Part shown: one piece after another, positions 17,810 through 25,254 of the stretch
Numbering within the stretch: position 1 is the stretch's first letter
Layout of the letters: each line of letters opens with the position of its first letter
Virus record (IMG/VR): IMGVR_UViG_3300010396_000051
Span: 1-56,086 of that record
Length of the DNA: 56,086 nt
DNA from: a virus
Strand: one strand, 5' to 3'
Notes under the pieces: model-generated
The model's input: the letters and a program-made list of their open reading frames with translations, nothing else
What the model was told of the DNA's origin: nothing
Database searches by the model: none
Made by a program: the position numbers and the translations under genes

Positions 17810-18148
17810 TCAGTAGCCGATTGCTGAAAGCCTCACTGTGAACGTTGAAAGATTCACTGCCGCGGCAACTTCGGCGCCAGTTGACTGCACGATCCAGACC
17901 AGACGCCACCCGGTCACACCGTTCTGCAACGGCAGAGGGCGAGTGACGTAGGTGTTGCCGTGGTCGCATGAACCGATGAGGGTCAGGATGGTATTCGGGA
18001 ACCCGAAAATCTTGGGGTCGATCGAATCGCCGCCCTGCACGTAAGACGTTGGGCCTTTGTAATCGACGGCCCCGAAAAGGTGACCGCCGAATACGTCCTG
18101 ATTGTTGAACGGCCCTTGATTGACCGTGCTACCTACGCCTTGCGCCAT
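17810..18148 (-). CDS. Small structural protein near capsid, unknown
   Basis: 112 residues, beta-rich with Gly and aromatic residues, no transmembrane segment. It begins 3 bp after the previous stop (ATG 18148). Its position directly downstream of the capsid and a second beta-rich protein suggests a head decoration or head-completion role. No family recognised. Confidence 0.6.
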   Translation of the reverse strand: MAQGVGSTVNQGPFNNQDVFGGHLFGAVDYKGPTSYVQGGDSIDPKIFGFPNTILTLIGSCDHGNTYVTRPLPLQNGVTGWRLVWIVQSTGAEVAAAVNLSTFTVRLSAIGY

Positions 18149-18151
18149 GAC

Positions 18152-18829
18152 TTAAACCCCCTGGTTGCCGACACGGATTCTCACCGCATCCACCCAGACC
18201 ACACAGCCGTTTGCAGTCGATGGAACCGTTGCCGCCACGCCAAGCGTAGTAGCGTCCACCGTGTTCGAGTTGTTCGACGTGAACCCGGAATTGGTCGAGC
18301 CGTTGTAGCTGACCGAGTTTCCGATTGTGGTTCCGGTTGCCGTCGCAATGTTGACCTTGACGCGCCCGCCGCCGACAAAGATGAAGCACCAGTTGCCGGG
18401 AGTCGGAGCCGTCGCCACGCCGCCAACCGTCGCCGGGTTGATGAACACACCCGCCGCGAGAGAGGCTGCCGACTGATTCGTCACCTGGTCGTAAGTCGTG
18501 ACGCTCAGATTGTCGTAATCGGACTCAGGAATGGATCCAACCGTCGCGCCGGAGTCAAGCCGGATGTACGCGGCCATGCCTGCCAGTGCATTCGCGGCTG
18601 TCGCGCCGGAGTCGAGAAGCACCCACTGGTACGCACCGTCGAAGAGAGTTGTGCCGGGAGCCGCGAGACTCTGCGCTTCCGAGGTGCCAAGCTGCACCAC
18701 TTTCCCCGGTGCAAGGCCGCTCGGATACACGTTGCCGTAGGCGTCCCCCTGTCCTGAAGGAGACGTGGAGTTGCACGTGTTAAGAAAACCGGGTACAAAA
18801 ACTCCCGCTGCTGTCGGTAAATTCGGCAT
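18152..18829 (-). CDS. Beta-rich structural protein, candidate head decoration
   Basis: 225 residues, Gly/Ala/Thr/Val-rich beta sequence (GRVKVNIATATGTTIGN) with no enzyme motif. It follows the major capsid gene with a 30-bp gap and a good ribosome-binding site (AGGAGACAGAA). Decoration proteins commonly sit here; inference from position. Confidence 0.6.
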   Translation of the reverse strand: MPNLPTAAGVFVPGFLNTCNSTSPSGQGDAYGNVYPSGLAPGKVVQLGTSEAQSLAAPGTTLFDGAYQWVLLDSGATAANALAGMAAYIRLDSGATVGSIPESDYDNLSVTTYDQVTNQSAASLAAGVFINPATVGGVATAPTPGNWCFIFVGGGRVKVNIATATGTTIGNSVSYNGSTNSGFTSNNSNTVDATTLGVAATVPSTANGCVVWVDAVRIRVGNQGV

Positions 18830-18859
18830 TTCTGTCTCCTAGCCAGTTCAAAACAAAAA

Positions 18860-20077
18860 CTATCCGCGAATTCCGTAACCCTGGAAGTGACGCCGCGGTG
18901 TTGGCGTGTAGAAATTGAGCGCGTGCCGCAAGAACTGCGTGTAAAGCGTCGGGTTCTGCGGATAGCGAATCGGGTCCATCATGTGATAGTTGAATGTCCC
19001 CGTGTTGGCCGGACGATACTTCCACGAATCGACGTCCAGACCGAAGATTGGTTCTCCGACAACGATGGTGTTCAATCCACCCGTCAGTGATGCAGTCGCG
19101 TTCGATGTGAACCCGAGGTTCGGGAGCAGCGAGGTCGCCTGGTTCACAAGCATGGCCTGCGTCAGCGTGAACTGGCCGGTCTGAATCGCGCCCGGTGCCG
19201 GAGCAGTGCCATCCGGCGACTGGAAGAGGTTTGCGATCGAAGGCTTCGGGCTGGACGACGGAACGATGTCATCCTCGAAGATCGTCGCATCCTCAAACTT
19301 GATGCCGGACCAGTTGATGTTCTGGTCATCGCGTGTCTCGTACCGCTGTTGGCGCTGGAATGCCGAAGCAATCGCGGAGTACCCGATCCACGAGGTCACC
19401 ATCAGGTCAACGCGGCCGATGGTGCTCATGTAGAGTTTGAGTAATTCCTGATAGTTCGGAGGAGCCGGGTTGCCGCTGGCGTCACCCAACCACACCGGAG
19501 TCGAGTTCATCGAAGCGGCGATGGCGCCGTTGCGTGTCTGCGAGGAGTACGTCGGGAAGACGTTGCCATCCCATGAGGGAGTTACGCCGTCATTCACCGC
19601 TTCCGAGATGCCGTTGATTGAGGCGAGACGGTCGTCCGAAACGCCTGTGCCTGCCGCCTGCCCGTGCCGGAACATATCGCCTTCCAACTGGAAGTCAATG
19701 CCTTCCTGCATCTGGTTGAGGTAGGCTTCGAGGATCGAGACGCGAGCTTCGGGGCCAGTGTTCTGCACCTCCAGCGAAAACTCTTCCACGAGGATGTGCT
19801 TCTCGTAGAGCTTTGGCTGGAAGAGGCCGGCAGTAATCATCTGCACGCGGTTGACCGAGACATCCTGGCCGGGGAAGATTGCCCCGCCCTGTGCGCCTTG
19901 GTACAACTGCGGGATCTGCATCGCCGCACCGCCGCCGAACGGGTCATACGCACCCGAGGCACGCATACGCCGCTGAAACGGGGTCGCGATGTAAGAATTT
20001 TGGAAGATTAAGCCGTCAATAATCTCATTAACGGTGACTGCCGGTACCTCAGGAAAAAGTGGTCCGAATGCGGGAAT
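18860..20077 (-). CDS. Major capsid protein, non-canonical start
   Basis: 405 residues if begun at ATT 20077; the first ATG (19966) would give 368. Between them lie 37 protein-like codons (PLFPEVPAVTVNEIIDGL, then ATPFQRRM) that read straight into the rest, with no ATG, GTG or TTG. GGGGG (20084-20088) lies 6 nt before ATT, an ideal Shine-Dalgarno spacing, so an AUU start as in infC is possible. The frame is also shared with the upstream LAGLIDADG gene across one TAG (20093-20095). Capsid assignment rests on its place after the scaffold, size, and segments such as LEAYLNQMQEGIDFQLEGD and VGEPIFGLDVDSWKY. It forms the icosahedral shell. Confidence 0.8.
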   Translation of the reverse strand: MPAFGPLFPEVPAVTVNEIIDGLIFQNSYIATPFQRRMRASGAYDPFGGGAAMQIPQLYQGAQGGAIFPGQDVSVNRVQMITAGLFQPKLYEKHILVEEFSLEVQNTGPEARVSILEAYLNQMQEGIDFQLEGDMFRHGQAAGTGVSDDRLASINGISEAVNDGVTPSWDGNVFPTYSSQTRNGAIAASMNSTPVWLGDASGNPAPPNYQELLKLYMSTIGRVDLMVTSWIGYSAIASAFQRQQRYETRDDQNINWSGIKFEDATIFEDDIVPSSSPKPSIANLFQSPDGTAPAPGAIQTGQFTLTQAMLVNQATSLLPNLGFTSNATASLTGGLNTIVVGEPIFGLDVDSWKYRPANTGTFNYHMMDPIRYPQNPTLYTQFLRHALNFYTPTPRRHFQGYGIRG

Positions 20078-20092
20078 AGCACACCCCCAAAA

Positions 20093-20686
20093 CTACTGAA
20101 CTGTCAACGTCTGTTCGGTAGCCTTTCTTGGCCGATAGCCAAATTTTTTACGCTGAAACTCGCGATCCTTTTGCCGGTTATGTTCGAGATGGAGCTTGCG
20201 ATTGTGCTCCTTGCTCTCCAGATACTTTTCGTGAGCGTCCATCGTGGCCCGCTTCGCAATCCGTTCTGGCGTGAGCTTCGGAGAAACGCGAGCTATCCTG
20301 TTCGACAACTTCAGCGAAACCTTGTCGATTTGCCCCTTACGGCGACTTGAAAGGTAGGGGTATATCGATTTCAAAAACACTCTCGCTCGGTCACCGCTTA
20401 TCTGCCATCTGTAGACAGGGTTGTTCCACGAGTCGTAGCCTTCAAAGGCTTCACTCGGACCAGAGGTGTTGACGCGAAAAGTAATGCTACCGCCCCATAG
20501 ATCACGAGCTTTGAATAGCAACTCGGGGTCTTTTTGGACCACATGGACAGATACGACGTTGTATCCCTTGCGCCCGCAGACGCTTCCCTCTCCGTCGTAG
20601 AAGCCAGCAAAGAACGCGGCGTCCAGTTCGCTCGGAGTGAGCGTCGGTTCAAGACTCTGACCGGGTTTTAGGGGCTCGTATGCCAT
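20093..20686 (-). CDS. LAGLIDADG homing endonuclease
   Basis: 197 residues. FFAGFYDGEGS (about residues 24-34) is a single LAGLIDADG helix; WQISGDRARVFLKSIYPYL is the matching second-half pattern of this family. A basic helical tail follows. With one motif it should act as a homodimer that cuts DNA and drives its own spread. It starts at ATG 20686 behind AAGGG, exactly where a capsid gene would be expected to start after the scaffold. Its stop TAG is in frame with the capsid. The first 10 or so residues (MAYEPLKPGQ) may be the displaced capsid N-terminus, or just the enzyme's own. No room exists for a group I intron core. Confidence 0.85.
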   Translation of the reverse strand: MAYEPLKPGQSLEPTLTPSELDAAFFAGFYDGEGSVCGRKGYNVVSVHVVQKDPELLFKARDLWGGSITFRVNTSGPSEAFEGYDSWNNPVYRWQISGDRARVFLKSIYPYLSSRRKGQIDKVSLKLSNRIARVSPKLTPERIAKRATMDAHEKYLESKEHNRKLHLEHNRQKDREFQRKKFGYRPRKATEQTLTVQ

Positions 20687-20693
20687 GTTTCCC

Positions 20694-21527
20694 TTATGCT
20701 GCTGTTGCTGCACGAACCTTCGCCACAGCGTTCTCACGCCATGAGCGATTTGCCTCCTGCTTGGACTTCGGAGCCTTCCAAGGTTCCTTGCCCGCGTCAG
20801 TGGCTTTGTACGTCGAAAATCTGCTCGGAACACCGGAGCGCACGTTGGGGTTCGCGCCCTGCGATTCGTTCCACTTCTTCTTCTCTGCGGCCACGGCAGC
20901 GTCGATGACCTTCTGCTGTTCCGCCTTCTGGAGTTCTTCGCGCTTGGCCGGGACGTTGTGCTTCCGCTCCCACGCCTGCTGTAAAGTAAATGATTTGTTG
21001 CCGAGAGTGTGTTCGCGGGTCACGTCGTCAACGAGTGCCTGCGTTTCGCCCAGGGGCGAACCGAACAACCGGAAGTGCTCCGCGTTGAGGTCGTTGAGCG
21101 CAATGATAGTGCGGGACTGTCTGTTTTCAAATCGGCCAAAATCGTCGCGGGAGATGGAATTGGGGTCCGGAGAGCCGGGAGCGCGGGGCGGTTCGTTGCT
21201 CGCAGCCGGGGGAGTCACTGCCTCAGGAACGATTCCATACTCACGCGCTTTTTCGAGTTCCGCTTTCAGTCGGGCATTCTCGCCAACAGCGTCGATGGCT
21301 TCCTTTGTAACCCTGCGGAGTTCAGGAACGACCTGATTCCTGTGGTTGTTCTCGTTGATGAGGAGATTTTCCTCTGCGGCCTTCCGCGCCGCTTCTGCGG
21401 CAGAGACGGATGCCTGAATCTTCTGGAGCATCGTGACAAACTTCGCACTGCCCATCACAGATTCAAATGCTTTGAGTTCGTCGTCCGTGTAACCTGACTG
21501 TTGCTTGAGCCATTCGAGTTCTGTCAT
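20694..21527 (-). CDS. Capsid scaffolding protein
   Basis: 277 residues, highly charged and helical, with coiled-coil segments (KIQASVSAAEAARKAAEENL; ARLKAELEKAREYG) and a basic C-terminus (WKAPKSKQEANRSWRENAV), the end that usually binds capsid subunits. It precedes the capsid gene, the standard order. It directs procapsid assembly and is then lost. ATG 21527. Confidence 0.75.
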   Translation of the reverse strand: MTELEWLKQQSGYTDDELKAFESVMGSAKFVTMLQKIQASVSAAEAARKAAEENLLINENNHRNQVVPELRRVTKEAIDAVGENARLKAELEKAREYGIVPEAVTPPAASNEPPRAPGSPDPNSISRDDFGRFENRQSRTIIALNDLNAEHFRLFGSPLGETQALVDDVTREHTLGNKSFTLQQAWERKHNVPAKREELQKAEQQKVIDAAVAAEKKKWNESQGANPNVRSGVPSRFSTYKATDAGKEPWKAPKSKQEANRSWRENAVAKVRAATAA

Positions 21528-21545
21528 CTCGTCTCCATGTCAGGA

Positions 21546-21797
21546 TTACCGGGGTGGCGCTGCGGGTTGCTGTGGTGCCGATCCCGCCGCCGCTGACGCC
21601 TGTACCATGCGCAAGCCCTTGAGCATCATCTGAATGCCCTGCTGGCCTTGCGGGAACTGCTGTGCAAGACCCTCAATCAACTGACCGAGCATGGTGAGCT
21701 TAATCGCTGGGCTTCCCCCACCGGACGCAGGAGCACCCCCAGGAGCGTTGCCGCCGTCCGGAGGTGCCTGTGTGACCGATGGAGGAAACGATCCCAT
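21546..21797 (-). CDS. Small Pro/Gly-rich protein, unknown
   Basis: 83 residues from ATG 21797, overlapping the previous stop by one base (TAATG). Low-complexity Pro/Gly/Ala ends flank a helix (LTMLGQLIEGLAQQFP and QQGIQMMLKGLRMV). No family recognised. It lies at the front of the capsid operon, so it is probably virion-related. Confidence 0.6.
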   Translation of the reverse strand: MGSFPPSVTQAPPDGGNAPGGAPASGGGSPAIKLTMLGQLIEGLAQQFPQGQQGIQMMLKGLRMVQASAAAGSAPQQPAAPPR

Positions 21798-21907
21798 TAG
21801 CGCTTTTTCCCACCGCGCTTGCGACCGCGACCCTTTTTGCCGCCGTGCTTGTGCCCGAGATGGGCGCCCTTCACACTCAGCTTTTTGTGACCCTTCTTGT
21901 GACGCAT
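21797..21907 (-). CDS. 36-residue Lys/Arg/His-rich protein
   Basis: Starts at ATG 21907, 8 nt after AGGAGAA. More than half the residues are Lys, Arg or His (MRHKKGHKKLSVKGAHLG; end GKKGRGRKRGGKKR). First gene of the capsid operon. Charge suggests nucleic-acid binding, perhaps a packaged DNA-neutralising peptide; no family match can be claimed. Confidence 0.65.
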   Translation of the reverse strand: MRHKKGHKKLSVKGAHLGHKHGGKKGRGRKRGGKKR

Positions 21908-21983
21908 GTGCGTATTCTCCTGTTTGGGATTTAGGAGCCGCTGACCGCATTCATACAGAAGGGAGCAGTAATCCGTTGCCCCA

Positions 21984-22012
21984 AACATAAGGCCACGAAA
22001 TTACTGCGTCAA
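21984..22012 (-). promoter_or_regulatory. Candidate promoter of capsid operon
   Basis: Minus strand: TTGACG (22007-22012), 17-bp spacer, TATGTT (21984-21989). Transcription would start near 21977, about 70 nt before the first ATG. Motif A copy A2 lies about 60 bp upstream. Confidence 0.45.
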
Positions 22013-22069
22013 TTGGAAATAGGGAAGTTGGCGCGTTTATTTCAATTGTTTAGGGTGAATGATAATCAA

Positions 22070-22084
22070 TTGCCAACTTGACAG
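22070..22084. promoter_or_regulatory. Motif A operator, copy A2
   Basis: TTGCCAACTTGACAG, flanked by AATTG as in the other copies, ending one base before the stop codon of the 22085-22336 gene and upstream of the capsid-operon promoter. A half-site (AAGTTGGC) lies at 22025-22032. Confidence 0.7.
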
Positions 22085-22336
22085 CTAGAGGTAGCGTTTT
22101 TCAGGCAACTTCTCCTCGACTTCGATCTCCGATTGTTTGATGCGTTCTGTCTCTACAAATTCGAGATGTGAGATCGATCCGCCAGGCCCAAACTGTGCTC
22201 GCATGGTGCCCACGCGCTTGTCGCTGTGAAGGTCGTCAAAGAGTTCCAAGAGAAGTTCGCGGCCACCATCGTTGCATTTGTGCTCCGACGTCACATTGGT
22301 CGTGTGCTGAGCGATTGTTACCGTCTTTGTGATCAT
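22085..22336 (-). CDS. Small protein, unknown
   Basis: 83 residues from ATG 22336 behind GGAGAAAG. Mixed alpha/beta, acidic and basic (VTIAQHTTNVTSEHK; RELLLELFDDLH). No family recognised. Motif B copy 22348-22361 directly abuts its ribosome-binding site. Confidence 0.6.
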   Translation of the reverse strand: MITKTVTIAQHTTNVTSEHKCNDGGRELLLELFDDLHSDKRVGTMRAQFGPGGSISHLEFVETERIKQSEIEVEEKLPEKRYL

Positions 22337-22347
22337 TTCTTTCTCCA

Positions 22348-22361
22348 GTCCGAATTTGGAC
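22348..22361. promoter_or_regulatory. Motif B palindrome, copy B2
   Basis: GTCCGAATTTGGAC, in the 24-bp gap between two minus-strand genes, touching the stop of one and the ribosome-binding site of the next. A bound protein or a folded mRNA here would affect translation of the 22085-22336 gene. Confidence 0.55.
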
Positions 22362-22528
22362 TACTTCTGGCAACTGCAATGCGGGCGTGGCTCCGGGTGA
22401 AAGTGCAACATCCATAGCTTCGATCCATAAGCGAACCACATAAAGACGTGGCCGTATCGCGGACCCATGTTCTCACCCTGAGTCGATTCCTGTTCGCCGA
22501 GTCTTTTGAATTCCCTGAGTGTCCACAT
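22361..22528 (-). CDS. Small protein with CxC end, unknown
   Basis: 55 residues from ATG 22528, four bases below the portal stop, with GGGGTAGAG upstream. Aromatic-rich (GHVFMWFAYGSKLWMLHF) ending in HCSCQK, a possible metal-binding tail. No family recognised. Too short for most gene callers, but spacing and ribosome-binding site support it. Confidence 0.6.
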   Translation of the reverse strand: MWTLREFKRLGEQESTQGENMGPRYGHVFMWFAYGSKLWMLHFHPEPRPHCSCQK

Positions 22529-22531
22529 ACT

Positions 22532-24655
22532 CTACCCCGATGTGCTGGCTACTGCCCTGCCGCCTGAAGCCAAGCCCTTCTGTTTTGCGCGAGGTGCCTG
22601 CTTGTTTGAAGCCGGACGGCCGCCATGCCCCGGCGCTGGCCCCGGCTTGCCGCCTTCCTCATCTTCTCCACCGAACCCAAGAGCTTTTGCCAGTTTCGCA
22701 ATCTCTGCCTTTTCGGTCAGTTGCTCTTTGGCCCAATTGAAAACCTTCTCTTTCACCGTCGAGCCTTCGATGGAGCCCCAATTCGGAATCTCAAAGGCGT
22801 TCGCCATCGTCTCGGGATCGACAATCACTCCCTTGCCCTGCGCTGCCAAGAGGTTCAGCTTGAACTTGTTCTGAGCGATGTAGTGCAGAGAGTGCGGAGT
22901 GATGTAGTAGCGGATATTCTTGGCGAAGTTCTCGGCGCGTTGCCCCTCATCGGCATTCGAGGGAACCGGCTTTCCTTCAGCGTCGATGGTCTGTTCGCCG
23001 GGGAGGTGCGAGGGAATCACCATGTCCGGCGCGTAGTCGAAGACTTCCGGCGCGATCGACTCCGGACCAACGTACTGCATGACCCTTGCCGTGGTGAGGT
23101 ATTGGAGGATGAGGTACTTCATCATCTCGCCCATGTCGCGCAATCCCTGCTCCATTGAGCGCGAAGTTCCCATGACCACCGGACCCTCTGCGTCGAGAGC
23201 CTTCTCGGGATCTTGAATGTTTGCCCTAAGCTTTTCGAGGGACTTGATCTGATCGAGCCCCATCTGGCGCATGATGGAGTTCTGCAAAAGTTCGATTACC
23301 TTGAATACCCACTCAGGGATGTTGTAGCACCACTCCGGCATTAGTGGACGCATCACTGGTTCTTTGTTGTCCCCGTCTACAGCGTAGGTCTGATCTGGAG
23401 AGAATGGATCAATCCCCTCTGCCTGTCGTGAGGTTAGCTTTGCGTTCTTGTCTCCGGTAGTGATATCGGCGTTATAGGATTTCCCAGGCTTCGCACGGGC
23501 CATCGCAACGCGGTAGATCGACCTTGCCAGGTCATCAATCGCATCCTGAAGCGGCCATGTCCCGTCGAAGAGGGAGTTCGCATCGCCCCATGCCCACTTG
23601 TCGAAGTAGAACGGAACCAGAGGCACCATGCCGTGCCGGTCGAAGGCGGGACCGTCGTACATCAGAGCAGAGTCACAGGAGATCATCAGCCTCCGGCGCG
23701 GGTAGACGCGGCAATCGTCCTCAGTCGCAGGACGTTCAACATTTCGACCTCCCTCAAAGCGGGTAATCGTCTGACCCACGTAGGGGACTTTGTAGTGCCA
23801 CGAGGTTCCCGGCTGGCCCATCTCCAGTTCTTTTCCGACCGGGTTCCCGTCTTCTCCGATGACCGGCTTCCCTTCCGCATCCATCTCTCCGAAGTTGATT
23901 CTCAGATCAAGGACGTAGGTGTAGTAGATGTCGCAGTATTGCTCCAACTGCCCACCGAGGCCGTGCATCTGCTGACGCGCCTTCTCCCACCGACCGCGAT
24001 TGACTTCCCCGCCCTTCGTCTTCCCGTACCGCTTTGCAGCGAATGGCTTGATGTACTGCTGATAGAGCGGGAACCGTGCATGAGCCTCTGCCACGCCAAA
24101 GGGGATCGCCAGCGTCACGATGTAGGCGCGTTGATAGTTCCGGTCACGTGGAAGCTGCACAGGGAGAACGTCGGGCTGTCCGAGAGCCATGAAGCGAAAC
24201 TCGCCCTCCCCCATGCCGAAGCAGCCACGCGAGTAGAAGGGATGGAGGAATCCACAGGAGGTAGCCGCGGCGAACTGCAAAGCCTCTTTCAGTTCTCGGT
24301 CAACGAAGTATTCGAGGTAGATCGCCTTCGCTGTCTTCGAGAGCATGTCCGCGTGTTTCTGGAATGCCTTGTTGTCCGTCGAGTATCCCCAGAAGGGACG
24401 GATGTCAGCCAGCGTCTCGACTGTCTCCGTCACAGCGCGTTTCAGGTCGCCGGTCGTGAAGGTTGACCATCCCCCGGAGCGTTCGCTGCCAGTCTTGCCG
24501 GCGAGAATGTCCATTGCCTTCTGAATGGAAGTCTGATCCAGATGGTCTTCGTTCCACTTGATTCCTTGCTCGATGGCCTGTTGAACGGATGCCAGCTTCT
24601 TGTCGTCCGGCTCCTCAAAGTTCGGAATTTGCCAATTTAGTTCATTGCTTGGCAA
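22532..24655 (-). CDS. Portal protein
   Basis: 707 residues. Helical and acidic N-terminus (KLASVQQAIEQGIKWNEDH), a long central domain with membrane-free mixed strands, and a C-terminal coil (KAEIAKLAKALGFGGEDEEG). Length and place between terminase and capsid fit the podovirus portal, the dodecameric DNA gate. It starts at TTG 24655, 5 nt after GAGGTG; the only nearby ATG is in another frame. The end of the HNH gene overlaps its start by 19 nt. Confidence 0.75.
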   Translation of the reverse strand: MPSNELNWQIPNFEEPDDKKLASVQQAIEQGIKWNEDHLDQTSIQKAMDILAGKTGSERSGGWSTFTTGDLKRAVTETVETLADIRPFWGYSTDNKAFQKHADMLSKTAKAIYLEYFVDRELKEALQFAAATSCGFLHPFYSRGCFGMGEGEFRFMALGQPDVLPVQLPRDRNYQRAYIVTLAIPFGVAEAHARFPLYQQYIKPFAAKRYGKTKGGEVNRGRWEKARQQMHGLGGQLEQYCDIYYTYVLDLRINFGEMDAEGKPVIGEDGNPVGKELEMGQPGTSWHYKVPYVGQTITRFEGGRNVERPATEDDCRVYPRRRLMISCDSALMYDGPAFDRHGMVPLVPFYFDKWAWGDANSLFDGTWPLQDAIDDLARSIYRVAMARAKPGKSYNADITTGDKNAKLTSRQAEGIDPFSPDQTYAVDGDNKEPVMRPLMPEWCYNIPEWVFKVIELLQNSIMRQMGLDQIKSLEKLRANIQDPEKALDAEGPVVMGTSRSMEQGLRDMGEMMKYLILQYLTTARVMQYVGPESIAPEVFDYAPDMVIPSHLPGEQTIDAEGKPVPSNADEGQRAENFAKNIRYYITPHSLHYIAQNKFKLNLLAAQGKGVIVDPETMANAFEIPNWGSIEGSTVKEKVFNWAKEQLTEKAEIAKLAKALGFGGEDEEGGKPGPAPGHGGRPASNKQAPRAKQKGLASGGRAVASTSG

Positions 24656-25254
24656 GGTGTCACCTCGTTCAAGATTGAGAACTGGCCAAACACTTGGTAA
24701 GCGTAGAAGTTATACGCGAGAGCAGCTAACTCTGCGGTTCGATATGTGCCGAGGCCGTGATTTTTCCCATCGTGCTGACATTGTGCCGAATATGGCTTTG
24801 AGCGGCAATTCTTCAGCCTGATTACTCCACGGTATCCATGCCGATTAGCATAGACACGATTAGAGGCGTTTTGGCTTGCTGTTGCGATGCGAATATTTGA
24901 TCGCCTGCAATCTAGACCGTTCCCGTTCGCGTGATCCACATGCAATCCTGCCGGAAAGCCAAGCAAGAGTCGATGAAGAGATATGACACTCTTCTGACCC
25001 GCGCAAACCAACTCGTCCTCTAACCTTTTCGCTTCGGCGTACATCTTCCCTTTGCAGCCCTTGTGAGCCCTGAGCCTCCACATGAACCTTTTCGCTAAAG
25101 GCTCATCGGCTTTGTCTATCAATGCTTCTTTTCCGTTCCTAAGTGGAATGTGAACCACGCCATCGTTGTCAGTAATCCATCCGTCGTTCATGAAACTACG
25201 ACGCCAATTGAAATACTGCTTACGACCAACAACGGTTCCTAGCTGAATGGCCAT
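24637..25254 (-). CDS. HNH homing endonuclease with AP2 domain
   Basis: 205 residues. HVDHANGNGLDCRRSNIRIA is the HNH core (about residues 113-132; HDH-type histidines), followed by a C-terminal AP2-like DNA-binding module (GYRGVIRL through GLGTYRTAELAALAYN). HNH-AP2 proteins are free-standing mobile endonucleases. Inserted between a small terminase-adjacent gene and the portal: it starts in a TAATG overlap with the former and overlaps the latter, a hallmark of recent gap invasion. Confidence 0.85.
   Translation of the reverse strand: MAIQLGTVVGRKQYFNWRRSFMNDGWITDNDGVVHIPLRNGKEALIDKADEPLAKRFMWRLRAHKGCKGKMYAEAKRLEDELVCAGQKSVISLHRLLLGFPAGLHVDHANGNGLDCRRSNIRIATASQNASNRVYANRHGYRGVIRLKNCRSKPYSAQCQHDGKNHGLGTYRTAELAALAYNFYAYQVFGQFSILNEVTPCQAMN

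Follow-up and report, generated by a model that had tools for sequence, protein, structure and literature searches.

A predicted LAGLIDADG endonuclease gene in the scaffold-capsid gap of a soil phage, and a putative AUU start codon of the major capsid gene

Introduction

The AUU start of gene 26* of phage T4 is an internal one, located within gene 26. In Escherichia coli, initiation at AUU is documented for infC, where it is repressed by IF3 (PMC5472188). Reinitiation after a nearby stop codon is known in phage operons, and it also drops when the level of IF3 is raised (PMC2268962). With infC and phage-operon reinitiation as precedents, the use of an AUU codon in combination with translational coupling is plausible.

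Free-standing homing endonuclease genes occur in T4-like phages, for example segD, which lies beside the major capsid gene 23, as well as mobE and segF (PMC2988022). It has also been found that endonuclease genes, mostly of the T5orf172 and HNH types, are clustered near essential phage genes, including the capsid gene (PMC10448857).

Here, a capsid locus is described that combines an endonuclease gene with a missing canonical start codon. It is found in the IMG/VR virus record IMGVR_UViG_3300010396_000051, of which the whole stretch of 56,086 nucleotides, referred to as the window, has been analyzed. The source is a soil phage, probably with an Acidobacteria host; it is the kinship with the Tunturiibacter phage Tunturi_1 that points to a host from the Acidobacteriota.

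Results

The features of the locus are as follows.

20694..21527, minus strand: scaffold-like gene (277 aa), an ORF directly upstream of the endonuclease gene, with a homologue at the same place in the related loci L001, L003, and L017
20093..20686, minus strand: predicted free-standing homing endonuclease gene of the single-motif LAGLIDADG type (197 aa, from an ATG to a TAG), assigned from Pfam LAGLIDADG_3, I-CreI-like fold matches, and 18 related alleles
20084..20088, minus strand: Shine-Dalgarno-like GGGGG (extended to GGGGGUG by the two bases that follow), 6 nt before the ATT, assigned from the duplex energy
20075..20077, minus strand: AUU, proposed capsid start codon, assigned from the alignment with the ATG of relatives and from the start contexts
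18860..20077, minus strand: predicted major capsid protein gene (405 aa if ATT 20077 is the start), assigned from PHROG, NCBIfam, Tunturi_1 homology, alignment, and fold
19964..19966, minus strand: first ATG of the capsid frame, an internal Met38 and not the start (Phe in L001, no Shine-Dalgarno sequence, constrained upstream codons)

The scaffold stop codon (TAA 20696-20694) is followed by GGGAAAC and then by the ATG of the endonuclease gene at 20686, when read along the minus strand. The TAG of this gene (20095-20093) is followed in the same frame by TTT TGG GGG TGT GCT ATT(20077) CCC GCA TTC GGA, such that the capsid frame begins 15 nt past the TAG and is open to the TAG at 18860. Translation of the frame 20686-18860 with TAG as X gives the 197-aa LAGLIDADG protein, followed by F W G C A I P A F G P L F P E V and the remainder of the capsid sequence. 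Going in frame from the TAG to ATG 19966, the first codon that is one base from ATG is ATT 20077; counted from this ATT, exactly 37 codons precede ATG 19966, with no ATG, GTG, or TTG among them. This agrees with the original prediction, made from the letters of the window, that the capsid gene has no canonical start in the 37 codons before ATG 19966, that it shares its frame with a LAGLIDADG gene across one TAG, and that this endonuclease gene lies behind the scaffold gene.

The endonuclease ORF matches Pfam LAGLIDADG_3 with an E-value of 1.3e-6 (29 bits, cut-off 22.5). It has a single motif, AGFYDGEG, of which the acidic residue, E33, is invariant among 13 aligned family members. Its sequence profile matches I-HjeMI and I-AniI, and the best fold matches of the structure model are structures of I-CreI. 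The gene has its own ORF, with a start and a stop codon, and is found outside any intron or intein. The downstream ORF is, by homology, the major capsid protein: it matches PHROG 9953 ("major head protein") with an E-value of 2e-8 and NCBIfam capsid_maj_Podo with 49.9 bits, under the curated cut-off of 80, and the protein annotated as major head protein in phage Tunturi_1 (PMC11924767) is 29% identical to it (E 3e-40). The structure model of the capsid protein is of low confidence (pLDDT 55) and is taken as supporting evidence only; its best fold matches, which are weak, are HK97-type capsids and encapsulins.

Elsewhere in the window, an HNH_3 endonuclease gene (24637-25254, minus strand) is located directly before the portal gene and overlaps its TTG start (24655), being a second free-standing endonuclease gene ahead of a structural gene. 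Relatives of this HNH gene are found in L031 (6841-7341, minus strand) and L034 (8768-9217, minus strand), on the opposite strand and downstream of the capsid gene. The portal proteins of L004/L029 (L029:2191-3018), L003, and L007 are 970 to 974 aa long, as compared with about 707; the additional in-frame segment of about 250 aa after residue 240 is at an intein-like position and has no Pfam or NCBIfam match.

The relatives of the capsid gene comprise 15 close or moderately close IMG/VR loci, three further contigs found by profile, and 80 more found with a sister-clade profile. Among 52 distinct related start contexts, the capsid gene starts with ATG in 48 and with GTG in four; AUU is conserved in none of the 52. 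Within the clade of the window, the ATG of the relatives aligns with ATT 20077, as seen when L006 (MPGFGPLFPE) is compared with the window (IPAFGPLFPE). The capsid protein of the nearest relative, L001, which is 84 to 85% identical to that of the window overall, starts at an ATG with MAAPFGPLFPEV, and the other N termini of this clade, all with ATG, are MPALAPLFPEL (L002), MPTPFGPLFPEV (L003), MPFGPLFPEL (L005), MPGFGPLFPEL (L006), and MAFGPLFPEL (L007); in the window, the N terminus is IPAFGPLFPEV, with ATT replacing ATG. The uninterrupted homologues have the PAFGPLF-like N terminus that was one of the two types anticipated. The original prediction had also regarded a homologue with this N terminus, an ATG at the equivalent of 20077, and no endonuclease gene as evidence against it. 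Seven distinct close homologues of this kind are found, which makes readthrough, a split gene, and splicing unneeded and leaves the choice between AUU and AUG.

The comparison of codons 4-37 of the capsid gene with those of L001 shows 5, 5, and 22 differences at codon positions 1, 2, and 3, respectively, with a dN of 0.18 and a saturated dS. By this measure, the region is under protein-level constraint and is not a chance open frame. This pattern implies that codons 4-37 are translated in the capsid frame and that ATG 19966 is not the start. That the capsid protein starts at ATG 19966, the preceding 37 codons being untranslated remains, has a negligible probability: this ATG is the first canonical start in the frame, but it is not conserved (the equivalent residue of L001 is Phe), it lacks a Shine-Dalgarno sequence (−1.7 kcal/mol), and the region before it is as constrained as coding sequence. 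The peptide stretch PAFGPLFPEVPAVTVNEIIDG, if present in virions, would tell against such a start, and the N-terminal peptide predicted for a start at 20077 is (M)PAFGPLFPEVPAVTVNEIIDGLIFQ....

Further readings of the start can be set aside. The GTG at 20082, in another frame, opens an ORF of only 24 codons and is ruled out by the way in which differences are distributed over the codon positions of the capsid frame. It was also considered that the endonuclease gene had taken over the ATG of the capsid gene, as TAAGGGAAACATGGCA resembles TAAGGAGAAACACCAATGGCA of L001; the N termini of the endonuclease family, however, align from Met1, and occupied alleles keep a capsid ATG. L017 appeared to be a second AUU case, with an ATT at the place equivalent to the start, but an ATG with a Shine-Dalgarno sequence is present 20 codons upstream. 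N-terminal extensions of about 20 to 30 aa, of two types, one of them hydrophobic, are seen in the capsid proteins of L017:5568, L033:5568, L073, L078, L079, and L143; these start at an ATG with a Shine-Dalgarno sequence, and the endonuclease gene is present in some of these loci and absent in others.

The scan with the endonuclease alignment identified 30 loci, of which the best 17 are all located in the scaffold-capsid gap of this phage group. In 18 other occupied alleles, the frame of the endonuclease gene relative to the capsid gene is 0, 1, or 2 in eight, six, and four cases, respectively, and the endonuclease stop codon usually lies 6 to 22 nt before the capsid start, with one overlap. 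The capsid gene has its own ATG in all 18; a complete capsid ORF starts after the endonuclease gene in 17, and the 18th is the overlapping one. Since all three relative frames occur and the capsid gene keeps its own ATG, readthrough and splicing are unnecessary and not conserved, and it is by coincidence that the two genes of the window share a frame.

The insertion itself is seen most directly in L133 and L136, where 28 bp and 689 bp, respectively, are present between flanks that are about 95% identical, corresponding to an empty and an occupied site. The pairs L091/L092, L145/L147, and L083/L087 agree with this, the insert being wholly between the genes. On comparison of these alleles, the insertion is intergenic, with no predicted loss from the capsid protein. 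In a capsid protein tree with 53 entries, 18 are occupied (L141, which has a weak endonuclease match away from the junction, is not counted), and 14 presence/absence changes are required, at least nine of which are forced by well-supported branches. The presence of the endonuclease gene is not clustered on this tree, with changes no fewer than with shuffled labels. The gene is thus best described as a predicted free-standing homing endonuclease gene at a favored site, belonging to a family that has repeatedly entered and left the scaffold-capsid gap.

Some occupied loci have features of their own. In L097 (about 2361-2477), a deletion remnant of the endonuclease gene, consisting of its last 39 codons, precedes the capsid gene, and between L045/L106 and L046, there is an apparent small indel near the 3' end of the endonuclease gene; in one of these alleles, the endonuclease reading frame extends 67 nt into the capsid gene. 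In L087, L090, and L092, the capsid ATG behind the endonuclease stop has little or no Shine-Dalgarno sequence (+0.7, +0.4, and −2.9 kcal/mol, respectively), which suggests translational coupling to the endonuclease gene.

These comparisons bear on the other three explanations that were originally offered besides an AUU start. It is very improbable that ribosomes read through the amber codon (TAG) of the endonuclease gene to give a capsid fusion protein, or that the capsid protein arises by programmed frameshifting. The single TAG within one frame would allow readthrough, but the homologous pairs occur in all three frames, usually with a separate, normal ATG 6 to 22 nt from the stop. The fusion would moreover add about 200 residues to every capsid subunit, the normal-size virion capsid protein being about 43 kDa, and a tRNA scan of the window finds no tRNA and hence no suppressor tRNA gene. 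Even less probable is an intron or intein, with splicing joining ATG 20686 to the capsid frame. Capsid introns carrying LAGLIDADG genes do exist, as in mycobacteriophage LittleE (PMC3706429), but only about 7 + 15 nt (about 22 nt) of the insert is noncoding, and the occupied relatives have the complete, unspliced capsid ORFs with their own ATG described above. The Rfam scan of 18000-22500 reveals no intron RNA and no match at E<1 except a spurious miRNA, no group I catalytic core is found around the ORF, in agreement with the original observation that none fits, and no gene is interrupted. An intein is barred by the stop codon between the ORFs, TAG 20095-20093, and by the variable frames in relatives. 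Nor has the endonuclease gene displaced the capsid N terminus and left a split gene, the capsid N terminus being complete and the start and N terminus of the endonuclease being its own and conserved. Of the original interpretation, the AUU start at 20077 with GGGGG 6 nt before it therefore stands, and the other three options are not supported.

The duplex of GGGGGUG with the 16S tail has an energy of −9.7 kcal/mol at a spacing of 6 nt before ATT 20077, and of all ATT triplets that the window contains, only 1.2% are preceded by a Shine-Dalgarno sequence as strong. This value exceeds those of all other occupied alleles (−9.3 to +0.7, median −5.6 kcal/mol) and is similar to those of the unoccupied alleles of the clade (−8.5 to −9.3 kcal/mol). 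AAGGAG-like ribosome-binding sites are present in most unoccupied start contexts; the site of the window is not this ancestral AAGGAG, so the ribosome-binding site was rebuilt or kept after the insertion. The strong Shine-Dalgarno sequence supports initiation at 20077, being equally expected for ATG as for ATT. Two features of a gene with an AUU start, of the infC kind, are observed, namely, the absence of a canonical start at the conserved N terminus and a well-placed Shine-Dalgarno sequence; conservation of the AUU is seen in 0 of the 52 relatives.

Whether the codon of the phage is AUU depends on one base. An unlikely, albeit serious, alternative is that the base was wrongly sequenced or assembled, or comes from a rare variant among the reads, in which case the real codon would be ATG, the gene would be ordinary, and only the endonuclease insertion would be real. 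The start contexts (ATG or GTG in all 52 distinct relatives) favor this, as does the one-base difference: no second copy of the allele is found in IMG/VR by the relative search, the exact junction pattern, or the profile, and as the allele is known from one contig, one erroneous base at 20075, T in place of G, would be enough to explain the observation. Against this, about 33 genes of the window, when compared with the L001 genome, have no frameshifts, and the capsid gene is the only one with homology clearly reaching above its first canonical start. A contig this clean favors a real base at 20075, and a stray error falling on a start codon would be improbable. The search of 84,980 genomes for prophages with the capsid profile found none. 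If the base is real, the allele could also be defective or attenuated, having lost its start codon, with the capsid protein being produced at a low level or supplied by a helper or a mixed population. AUU is usually a poor initiator and the capsid protein is needed in large amounts, so that poor initiation would be costly for the most abundant virion protein. This alternative is nevertheless improbable, as the capsid gene has an uninterrupted frame of 405 codons and a Shine-Dalgarno sequence at a suitable position, and the constraint on codons 4-37 is not relaxed. Rather doubtful, though less so than a defective allele, is the proposal that the AUU start is real and adaptive, with capsid translation coupled to the endonuclease gene once the gap was occupied; terminating ribosomes would open a GGGGGUG/UAUUCCC hairpin that masks the ribosome-binding site and the AUU, and output would depend on reinitiation and the IF3 level. 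The evidence for this hairpin is weak: an equally good fold is obtained with 26 of 200 shuffled sequences, and the 40-nt fold lacks the hairpin.

Discussion

We are highly confident of a free-standing LAGLIDADG gene in the scaffold-capsid gap, an intact capsid gene, and a start codon at 20077. The comparison with relatives shows, for the genes as predicted, the intergenic insertion, the intact N terminus, and the position of the start; that the AUU is really present in the phage and really used, and that there is coupling, is what we infer. The use of AUU by the phage is moderately probable, and the best explanation overall, which is a likely one on balance, is a mobile free-standing endonuclease gene in the gap together with a full-length capsid protein initiated at AUU 20077. 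In this explanation, the mobile LAGLIDADG gene occupies the scaffold-capsid gap without being part of the capsid gene, and the ancestral ATG at 20077 would have changed to ATT in a capsid gene that is otherwise normal and full length. The initiator tRNA would read the AUU, aided by GGGGGUG 6 nt upstream, and ribosomes finishing the endonuclease 15 nt earlier would probably help capsid initiation.

Provided that the base is real, a start codon that gene finders reject and bacteria hardly use would serve for the most abundant virion protein of the phage, and automatic annotation would drop 37 conserved capsid residues. The firmer result is that one LAGLIDADG family enters and leaves, repeatedly, a single gap before the capsid gene in this phage group, and pairs of empty and occupied alleles are at hand for studying homing without introns.

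The arrangement resembles that of segD, mobE, and segF of the T4-like phages (PMC2988022), with an endonuclease gene between essential phage genes, a patchy presence, and no intron or intein. The T4-like endonucleases are of the GIY-YIG or HNH type, whereas that of the window is a single-motif, I-CreI-like LAGLIDADG protein for which homing is predicted; unlike the T4-like cases, its gene has the orientation of the capsid gene and lies directly before it. The unstable nuclease content at fixed places beside essential genes is shared with the clusters described previously (PMC10448857), but here a single junction in Tunturi_1-related phages harbors one LAGLIDADG family. A LAGLIDADG gene at a capsid gene is also present in mycobacteriophage LittleE (PMC3706429), where it belongs to a spliced intron inside the capsid gene and lies on the opposite strand, whereas in the window it is a free-standing gene between genes. 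The AUU initiation codon is shared with E. coli infC, which encodes IF3 and is autoregulated by it (PMC5472188). Unlike infC and T4 gene 26*, the window has this codon, one base from the ATG of its relatives, in a gene that encodes a major structural protein and has to be highly expressed, and the AUU is a putative one known from one metagenomic contig. The combination of a LAGLIDADG insertion with an apparent AUU start is unusual but of a known kind.
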